Source of the DNA: Bacillota bacterium
GTDB taxonomy: Bacteria; Bacillota; Negativicutes; Sporomusales; CTSoil-080
Length of the DNA stretch: 64,000 nt
Direction of reading: 5' to 3'
Assembly (NCBI GenBank): GCA_017889635.1
Contig: JAGGAC010000011.1
Span: forward strand, 1 to 64,000
Positions 8,970 to 53,608 of this stretch are shown here, one piece after another. Within the stretch, counting starts at the first letter, position 1, and every line of letters begins with the position of its first letter. The notes under the pieces were generated by a model. The model made no database searches, was not told the origin of the DNA, and was given only the letters and a program-made list of their open reading frames with translations. The position numbers and the translations under genes were made by a program.

Positions 8970-9638
8970 TTACATGAATCTACGTGCTCCGATATAACGT
9001 GCTGCCCAGTAGCTCATATCAAGCGGGTCAATAACCACCCCGCGACTGGAAGTAGCACTTATAAAGTATCCGTCTCCAATATAAATCCCTACATGTGATG
9101 CTCCCGAAGCATATGTACTAAAATAAACAGTATCTCCAGGCCGCAAGCGGCTTCTGCTGACTGGGTAGCCTGCATCATACTGGGCATCAGCCGTCCGTGG
9201 CAGCATTACCCCGGCGCGGGCAAAAACAAATTGAACGAAACCGGAACAATCAAACCCATCAAGACTTGTGCCACCATAAACATACGGTACTCCCTGGCAC
9301 CTTAAAGCGGCTTGAATTATCCGTCGCGCACCACCTAGCATCGACCCATCACGGCTGACAGGAATATCACGCCCCATTAAAGCACGATATGTAGCCGGAC
9401 CTATAATGCCATCCGCATCTAATCCCTGAGCCTTCTGAAATTCTTTAACTGCGGCTGTCGTAGCACCGCCAAAGTCTCCGTCCACACTTCCGACTCTATA
9501 GCCGCATGAAATTAATCTTGACTGAACCTCTGCGACCTCCGGTCCCTTGTCGCCTTCCTCCAAAGCGTTTGCTTCAGCTAAAGCAACGCTAGAGAATAGA
9601 AGTAGAAACAGTGCCGTAGTTCTCAAAGCTTTTTTCAA
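8970..9638 (-). CDS. secreted NlpC/P60 cell-wall hydrolase with peptidoglycan-binding domain
   Basis: signal peptide; PG_binding_1 (GDKGPEVAEVQSRL); VPYVYGGTSLDGFDCSGFVQFVF catalytic motif. Confidence 0.92.
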   Translation of the reverse strand: MKKALRTTALFLLLFSSVALAEANALEEGDKGPEVAEVQSRLISCGYRVGSVDGDFGGATTAAVKEFQKAQGLDADGIIGPATYRALMGRDIPVSRDGSMLGGARRIIQAALRCQGVPYVYGGTSLDGFDCSGFVQFVFARAGVMLPRTADAQYDAGYPVSRSRLRPGDTVYFSTYASGASHVGIYIGDGYFISATSSRGVVIDPLDMSYWAARYIGARRFM

Positions 9639-9649
9639 TAATTCTCTCT

Positions 9650-9800
9650 CCTTTGACGCCTCCGGAGTTAGCTGACGGGCTAGGGCTGAAGAGATGCCCT
9701 ACTCTATAAGAGTTTCGCCCCAATTATTGGTTCCCCCGTACCTGAGCAGGTTTCGGCATTTTTCGCTCAAAAAATTTACTCGCTTTTTTAAGTTATTCGC
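9650..9800 (-). ncRNA. c-di-AMP riboswitch (ydaO/yuaA leader)
   Basis: minus strand GCCGAAACCTGCTCAGGTACGGGGGAACCAA...GGGGCGAA...TAGGGCATCTCTTCAGCCCTAGCCCGTCAGCTAACTCCGGAGGCGT, upstream of a cell-wall hydrolase. Confidence 0.9.
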
Positions 9801-10893: not shown

Positions 10894-11047
10894 TTAACCC
10901 CCACCTGAATTAAGTCTCATTTATCCGATGAATAACCTGTTCTAATACTCCGTCCTCTATAGGCTGGAGTAAAGAACGGCTAATTCCCTGGATAATTCGA
11001 CTAAAATTCAGATTGGGTTAACCCCCACCTGAATTAAGTCTCATTTA
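10894..11047. repeat. dispersed structured repeat, copy A (one ~124-bp unit bounded by two identical 30-bp direct repeats)
   Basis: TTAACCCCCACCTGAATTAAGTCTCATTTA at 10894-10923 and again at 11018-11047; intervening hairpin shared with 22471-22603. Confidence 0.85.
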
Positions 11048-11089
11048 TAATATTATCAAAAAACCCTCGCCCCATACACAGCGTAAGAT

Positions 11090-22294: not shown

Positions 22295-22470
22295 AAAGCA
22301 TCCTCCTTGATGATTGACTCAACACCTATAATTAAGATTTTCTATATAATAGCACAATTAATAAACCAATGCCAGACAGCATATTCCAACCCGTTTAACA
22401 CGAACTTAGTTCGATGGTAATAGACTGCTCCCCTCCGCCCTAAAAGAAGGAATCCTCCAGGCTGTTAACA

Positions 22471-22603
22471 GGATAAATGAGACTTAATTCAGGTGGGGTT
22501 TTAAGCCCATCTGAATTTTAGTCGAATTATCCAGGGAATTAGCCGTTCGCGTGCTCCAGCCTGTAGAGGATGGAGCACGCGAACGGGTTATTCATCGGAT
22601 AAA
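22471..22603. repeat. dispersed structured repeat, copy B
   Basis: GGATAAATGAGACTTAATTCAGGTGGGG...TAGTCGAATTATCCAGGGAATTAGCCGTTC...GAACGGGTTATTCATCGGATAAA, matches reverse complement of copy A. Confidence 0.85.
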
Positions 22604-22645: not shown

Positions 22646-22654
22646 AATCAGTTC

Positions 22655-23020
22655 CGGTGAGTAGTCAATAAGCCGAGTTTTGTTCCGCCTCCGCGGTGAC
22701 GATCATTTATCTACGCCGGCAGTTGCCTGACGACTCTAGCGACACAACCCGGAAGGATCTGCGGGCCGCTTCATCCCTTCCCTATTCGGTCTTGCTCCAG
22801 GTGGGGTTTACCTAGCCAGTCAGTCACCTGACTGCTGGTGCGCTCTTACCGCACCGTTCCATCCTTACCCGGCCAAAACCGGGCGGTCTACATTTCTGTG
22901 GCACTGTCCCTGAGGTCACCCTCGCTGGCCATTAACCAGCACCCTGCCCTATGGAGCTCGGACTTTCCTCGTATGCCTTTAGGCATCCGCGATCATCTTT
23001 CGTACTCACTGTCTGAAGTT
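22655..23020 (-). ncRNA. rnpB: RNase P RNA
   Basis: minus strand GAGGAAAGTCCGAGCTCCATAGGGCAGGGTGCTGG...CCGCAGATCCTTCCGGGTTG...ACAAAACTCGGCTTA. Confidence 0.95.
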
Positions 23021-26505: not shown

Positions 26506-26534
26506 TAAGCGCACCCGCTAGTTAGGTGCGCTTA
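26506..26534 (-). terminator. TPP riboswitch expression-platform terminator
   Basis: TAAGCGCACC...GGTGCGCTTA followed by T-rich sequence on the minus strand. Confidence 0.7.
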
Positions 26535-26537
26535 TAC

Positions 26538-26628
26538 GCAAAGGCCTTTCCTACGCGGGCATTATCCCGATCAGGTCAAAAGGTCAGGTGCTTAATAGCC
26601 CTCTCTCAGCCCATAACATGAGCTCCCT
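26538..26628 (-). ncRNA. TPP riboswitch (THI element)
   Basis: minus strand GGGCTGAGAGAGGGC...ACCTGACCTTTTGACCTGATCGGGATAATGCCCGCGTAGGAA. Confidence 0.95.
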
Positions 26629-26681
26629 TGAATATTATTCTTTGCCACCAGTATACATCCAGGTTCGAACTCCGTCAATAA

Positions 26682-30893: not shown

Positions 30894-31337
30894 ATGGAAC
30901 TTACCAATGATGCTCTTGGTTTTATGCTTCATCACTCTGATTTACGCCTTTTAAAGCTGCAACTTATAAAATTCAAGGCTTTCGGTGTAACGCCGGAACA
31001 ATGGCACCTATTAAACAGTTTGGCCGAAAAAGACATCATCAACCAAAAAGAGCTAGCGAAACGGGTTGACAAAAATCAAACTATTGTCACCAGAATGCTG
31101 CTGATTCTTGAACGAAAAGGATTTGTCAAAAAAGAAATTGATCCAAACGACCGTAGAGCTTTTTTACTATATTTGACCGAGTCAGGCCAAAAAGTCCAAA
31201 ACAACCTTTTACAGCTTGCCGAGAAAACATTTGAAACATTATTACAAGACATTCCGCAAGAAGATGTTGCCAAATTCGCTCAAGTATTAAATACCGTGTA
31301 TCAAAAGCTTGATGTAATGATTGCCGCCCATAAATGA
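30894..31337 (+). CDS. MarR-family transcriptional regulator
   Basis: INQKELAKRVDKNQTIVTRMLLILERKGFVKKEIDPNDRRAFLLYLTESGQ. Confidence 0.92.
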   Translation: MELTNDALGFMLHHSDLRLLKLQLIKFKAFGVTPEQWHLLNSLAEKDIINQKELAKRVDKNQTIVTRMLLILERKGFVKKEIDPNDRRAFLLYLTESGQKVQNNLLQLAEKTFETLLQDIPQEDVAKFAQVLNTVYQKLDVMIAAHK

Positions 31338-31379
31338 CTAAAATTCAGGTGGGGTTTTAACCCCACCTGAATTTTAGTC
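31336..31379. repeat. dispersed repeat, copy C: solo first hairpin with a short downstream remnant
   Basis: GACTAAAATTCAGGTGGGGTT-TT-AACCCCACCTGAATTTTAGTC (21-bp perfect stem) followed by CGAATTAACCAGGGAAT. Confidence 0.85.
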
Positions 31380-31412
31380 GAATTAACCAGGGAATAAAGT
31401 TGTCGATCAGCA

Positions 31413-53590: not shown

Positions 53591-53608
53591 GTTATTCATC
53601 GGATAAAA
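53591..53608. repeat. 18-nt remnant of the dispersed repeat (copy D)
   Basis: GTTATTCATCGGATAAAA identical to the right end of copy B. Confidence 0.5.

Follow-up and report, generated by a model that had tools for sequence, protein, structure and literature searches.

The bcr1 repeats of the Bacillus cereus group are short, gene-less, structured sequences that carry a TTTAT motif and occur in many copies, and previous studies described them as MITE-like and suggested that they move by a route resembling site-specific recombination (PMC6542083, PMC3446304). REPs are 21-65 nt long with a GT[AG]G foot (PMC6006769), and the SLS families Clop-1 of Clostridium perfringens and Clot-1 of Clostridium tetani are dispersed clostridial stem-loop families of 93 and 74 bp (PMC2267715). 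In the open-access literature, we found no description of the repeat family analyzed here, and no catalogued repeat or IS family was found for it with the tools used. With a probability of roughly 0.77, we consider it a bcr1-like, non-autonomous, gene-less hairpin DNA element of ~130 bp, which inserts at ATAAA and would be moved by a candidate enzyme acting in trans; to our knowledge, no mobiliser of bcr1-like elements has been identified.

Repeat unit and its copies in the window

The window is the whole stretch of DNA that was analyzed, 64,000 nucleotides in length. Copy A is a complete element of 129 bp (ATAAATGAGACTT...CATCGGATAAA) at 10920-11048 on the reverse strand, found by BLAST, by the alignment of copies and by the covariance model (127.8 bits, E 3e-26), and its limits were set by aligning copies from its own genome and from relatives. 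A sequence of 31 nt is present twice in identical form, at 10894-10924 and 11018-11048, spaced 124 bp apart. An earlier reading made from the sequence only had taken this arrangement for a body of 124 bp with a 30-bp direct repeat on either side; the exact repeat and its spacing held, but the unit is the 129-bp element with ATAAA ends, and the outer 31 nt (10894-10924, reverse strand, 100% identical) are what remains of the 5' end of another element in tandem, which has the ATAAA at 10920-10924 in common with copy A. The order of the element is ATAAA, hairpin 1, hairpin 2, CATCGG and ATAAA, ~130 bp in total. Folding recovered both of the hairpins that had been proposed for the unit, and in copy A hairpin 1 (GACT...AGTC) lies at 10999-11040 and hairpin 2 (TTATCC...GGATAA) at 10921-10995, both on the reverse strand. 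As the sequence-only reading had also stated, there is no transposase ORF near copy A.

Copy B, a complete element at 22473-22603 on the forward strand (BLAST; covariance model 133.5 bits, E 2e-27), is the match to the reverse complement of copy A that had been noted at 22471-22603, and has the 3' side of the RNase P RNA gene as one neighbour and the remnant of a family 2 element as the other. The latter, a degenerate member of a related subfamily (GAACTTAGTTCGA...CAGGCTGTTAACAGGATAA; 22386-22477, forward strand, left limit approximate; motif match and fold), directly adjoins copy B, with an ATAA common to both, and the family 2 module is also nested in loci L104-L106 and L219. Copy C at 31330-31398 on the forward strand (51.4 bits) is a short form consisting of ATAAA, a near-perfect hairpin 1 palindrome, a truncated hairpin 2 and ATAAA, and a motif match at 53591-53607 on the forward strand marks a remnant of the 3' end, GTTATTCATCGGATAAA. 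Copies A and B were among the 60 copies from which the covariance model was built, and therefore the BLAST E-values serve as the independent measure. In the own genome (G000), BLAST gave 36 rows with E from 7e-76 to 1e-4, corresponding to ~30 distinct loci after merging the opposite-strand matches of palindromes, so that the repeat, for which further copies had been predicted, matches far beyond chance. Eighteen of these matches are long and the remainder are mostly hairpin 1 alone. Short forms lacking hairpin 2 and ending in TTATCCATCGGATAAA were observed at several loci of this genome (e.g. L021, L028, L029) with the same deletion point, which may mean either that the short form is mobile on its own or that the palindrome is deleted repeatedly.

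Other structured sequences were observed in the window. A strong palindrome around GGCATGTGTTCGGTGGAGGTTATTGCCCCCACCGAACACATGCC at 2249-2297, with a weak model match (E 5e-4), resembles hairpin 1 of the family 2 module in locus L023 and is possibly a further diverged subfamily. A c-di-AMP riboswitch (9642-9768, reverse strand) is present directly upstream of an NlpC/P60-type hydrolase ORF (8970-9638), the RNase P RNA, with copy B just downstream of it, lies at 22654-23008 on the reverse strand, and a TPP riboswitch lies at 26531-26639 on the reverse strand.

Target site, distribution and nested growth

When 97 copies from several genomes were aligned, the base preceding TAAA was A in 93%, the flanks further out had no clear base preference, and the 3' end was CATCGGATAA with A as the usual next base. 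Empty sites were sought by comparing the joined flanks of 15 copies of Pelosinus fermentans JBW45 (G042) with seven other Pelosinus genomes. At locus L217, the empty site is TTTGAATAAAAATC and the filled site is TTTGA-ATAAA-element-ATAAA-AATC; the empty site of L218 is CCATAAAATA, those of L214 and L215 are likewise rich in A+T, and some of the Pelosinus empty sites deviate from exact ATAAA by a base or more. ATAAA is thus present at both ends of the element and once in the empty site, with the same bases at every locus, and the comparison of empty with filled sites shows that the element enters ATAAA (TTTAT on the opposite strand), as reported for bcr1, and that one ATAAA thereby becomes two. 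Tandem copies with one common ATAAA were found at L001, L058, L213 and L236.

The covariance model of 60 copies, a kind of search that the sequence-only reading had proposed with copies A, B and C, detected the repeat in many genomes of the phylum: full-length matches were present in 31 of 300 genomes sampled across it, and hosts include Sporomusa malonica, S. silvacetica, S. acidovorans, P. fermentans JBW45, Clostridium sp. OS1-26 and several MAGs. In the order of Clostridium sp. OS1-26, 61 of 147 sampled genomes have full-length matches, with counts that are in many of them lower bounds (at least the number found). Among Sporomusa relatives the distribution is patchy, with dozens of candidates in some genomes and one in others. 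Between S. silvacetica (family f7) and G031 (family f12 of the same class), non-coding copies reach 98.5% identity, and between G010 and G067, which belong to different classes of the phylum, 93%; such identity across families and classes indicates horizontal spread. Moreover, identical copies at several loci in S. malonica (G021) and in G031 indicate recent movement. With two subfamilies as query, blastn found no match among 72,556 plasmid records (thresholds E 0.01 and E 1) or among 50,697 phage records, a third plasmid query gave three short partial matches only (E 0.3-4), and a search of IMG/VR with exact 20-22-mers of the repeat gave nothing convincing. All 93 copies examined were intergenic, as judged from ORFs of at least 70 codons, their orientation to neighbouring genes was not fixed, and a cluster of four copies in L318 was surrounded by ordinary chromosomal genes. 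A second dispersed motif around CGGCTTGCGCCGAGC...GTTTTCT adjoins elements at L057, L060, L064, L066, L086 and L122 (Sporomusa, CTSoil_079), and is apparently a separate repeat family.

In G031, a complete genome of 5.1 Mb in one contig, we paired 53 5' ends with 3' ends, and 52 of them had a 3' end within 107-536 bp. The lengths rise in steps (~130, 232-234, 332-335 and one of 536 bp) with few intermediates, and the extra modules of 102-103 bp are of a related subfamily (ATAAGTGAGCCTTGG...CTGTTAACGAGATAA), situated in the loop of hairpin 2 and in tandem where there is more than one. Composites of a single size were present at ~20 loci, which suggests that such a composite is mobile as a whole. 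No gene was found in any of the G031 copies, and no gene-bearing relative was present among the 53 5' ends; an apparent element of 7.35 kb was rejected as a coincidental pairing, its 3' end being part of a separate complete unit. The ladder of 130, 233, 334 and 536 bp illustrates how a gene-less element can grow and yet stay mobile. On contig C1 of the same genome, positions 1493408-2845817 (1.35 Mb) are free of copies, against 53 copies elsewhere (chance ~1e-7 under uniform placement), and this stretch was not assigned to the terminus because dnaA was not found at base 1.

Mobility, mobilising enzyme and alternative explanations

The sharp ends, the empty sites, the identical dispersed copies and the spread between host families agree with the earlier suggestion of a non-autonomous mobile repeat, and the mobility of the element is near certain. 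It inserts into an existing ATAAA (TTTAT on the other strand), whereby the single ATAAA is doubled. We propose that insertion at the end of an earlier copy would give tandem arrays with a common ATAAA, and that insertion inside the loop of another copy would give nested composites, which may thereafter spread as a unit. The element would be recognised as folded DNA, either single-stranded or as a cruciform, and an enzyme supplied in trans would cut and join at TTTAT, by analogy with IS200/IS605 or with the recombination of integron cassettes.

The foremost alternative is an element of the REP or IS200/IS605 type, mobilised through single-stranded DNA by a Y1 HUH transposase (TnpA or RAYT). The subterminal imperfect hairpins, the fixed target of 4-5 nt on the TTTAT strand and the tandem sharing of the target all fit it, as does a modest replication-strand bias: when five genomes starting at dnaA (base 1) were pooled, 48 of the 74 copies among the matches listed had their element strand against the fork (48:26, p=0.014, uncorrected), G031, G041, G482 and G370 having been excluded from the pooled test because DnaA was not found in their first 2.5 kb. 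The bias hints weakly that the element is coupled to a single-stranded replication intermediate, and its direction, again weakly, is that expected from single-stranded transposition on the lagging template. In one set of 24 genomes, to which the own genome belongs, every member also had Y1 genes, but some of these genomes had a single repeat match or none, and the only Y1 gene of the own genome is of the IS200 type and broken. No association with the repeat emerged for this candidate. Only one of 20 Y1 genes inspected was near any piece of the repeat, a partial match of 23 nt, and across the 147 genomes sampled from one clostridial order, 35 of the 61 with the repeat and 46 of the 86 without it had a RAYT-like gene (Fisher p=0.74). 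Moreover, a Y1_Tnp match was absent from 10 of 28 copy-rich genomes, such as G464, a genome of at least 20 copies whose 4.63-Mb contig has dnaA at base 1. Since small replicons are perhaps missing and a helper was perhaps lost after a burst, this absence weakens the Y1 model without closing the question. The resident Y1 transposases are probably not the mobilising enzyme, and we regard mobilisation by a Y1 transposase as unlikely.

A less probable alternative still, and one that the sequence-only reading had offered beside a mobile repeat, is a repeated structured RNA, either an sRNA or a regulatory element of UTRs, whose function would explain its conservation. It would account for the intergenic position of every checked copy, transcription of bcr elements as part of UTRs is common in B. 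cereus (PMC3446304), and covariation is strong. The fold consists of two imperfect hairpins, GACT...AGTC and TTATCC...GGATAA, the latter (hairpin 2) with asymmetric, conserved bulges. Gaps shifted in the raw MAFFT alignment and made its RNAalifold consensus poor; we therefore used the structure of one copy and tested it by counting pairs. Among 60 copies, 22 of 47 stem pairs had changes on both sides, and 156 double-change cells were observed versus 56 in shuffles and 11-40 with the partner slid, so that the stems have changed in a compensatory manner. An RNA stem tolerates G-U pairs but not A-C. The stem mismatches comprised 89 G-T versus 107 A-C, which suggests that the stem structure matters as DNA; in a second alignment, which was fitted to the model and thus leans towards G-U, the counts were 52 G-T versus 35 A-C. 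Folding of the element at the DNA level is therefore likely. The palindromes of some copies (L008, L069) are perfected, as hairpin-templated correction of DNA would give, and such correction alone could produce the covariation. Further, the repeat has no match in Rfam at gathering or relaxed thresholds, its gene neighbourhood and orientation are not fixed, and copy numbers range from 0 or 1 to dozens among related species; a conserved RNA is accordingly quite improbable. A true MITE, which would descend by deletion from a DNA transposon and be moved by a DDE transposase acting on terminal inverted repeats, is the least probable of all. The size and dispersal of the repeat and the constant short duplication at its ends would fit, but ATAAATGAGACT at one end and CATCGGATAAA at the other do not form an inverted pair. 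Random target duplications would differ between sites, whereas the bases duplicated here are everywhere the same. No parental transposon was found, nor did any of the 53 5' ends in G031 belong to a gene-bearing relative. The label MITE, given earlier, thus does not apply in the strict sense.

Comparison with known systems

Returning to the gene-less hairpin DNA element moved in trans, its anatomy, but its anatomy only, is like that of IS200/IS605-derived elements, with subterminal hairpins and a fixed cleavage site of 4-5 nt, and it shares with the short elements derived from IS200/IS605 and with REPs and REPINs an intergenic location, a fixed short target and imperfect hairpins. It is unlike the IS200/IS605 derivatives in that 10 of 28 copy-rich genomes do not have Y1_Tnp. 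The description as REP-like, made from the sequence before, did not stand, because the repeat is ~130 nt long and ends in ATAA(A), its consensus is without the GT[AG]G foot (no GTAG-tagged REP), and it neither flanks nor co-occurs with a RAYT gene, unlike the REP/RAYT system. Compared by description only, it resembles Clop-1 and Clot-1 as a dispersed stem-loop family, but is ~130 bp in length versus 93 and 74 bp.

In integrons, the attC site of the cassettes is recombined as folded single-stranded DNA, and cassettes form tandem arrays with a common core site. The element resembles attC cassettes in the folded recombination site that we propose and in its tandem arrays, and differs from them in having no attC core sequence and in being dispersed and gene-less.

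The closest likeness is to bcr1-bcr3, again by description: a TTTAT/ATAAA motif is present at each end, and the repeats are gene-less, multi-copy and essentially chromosomal. Tentatively, and at somewhat less than even odds, these repeats could belong to one Bacillota-wide superfamily of folded DNA, possibly including bcr1, with insertion at ATAAA/TTTAT, nested and tandem growth, jumps between families and classes, and an undescribed enzyme other than a Y1 HUH transposase. With so many independent hosts, the enzyme could be sought by co-occurrence, and the Y1-free genomes already argue against the most obvious candidate. Elements like bcr1 have been treated as a peculiarity of the B. cereus group, to which bcr1-bcr3 are described as specific, whereas the present repeat family spans much of Bacillota, and elements of the same kind are present in Sporomusa, in Pelosinus and, within one clostridial order, in ~40% of the species sampled.
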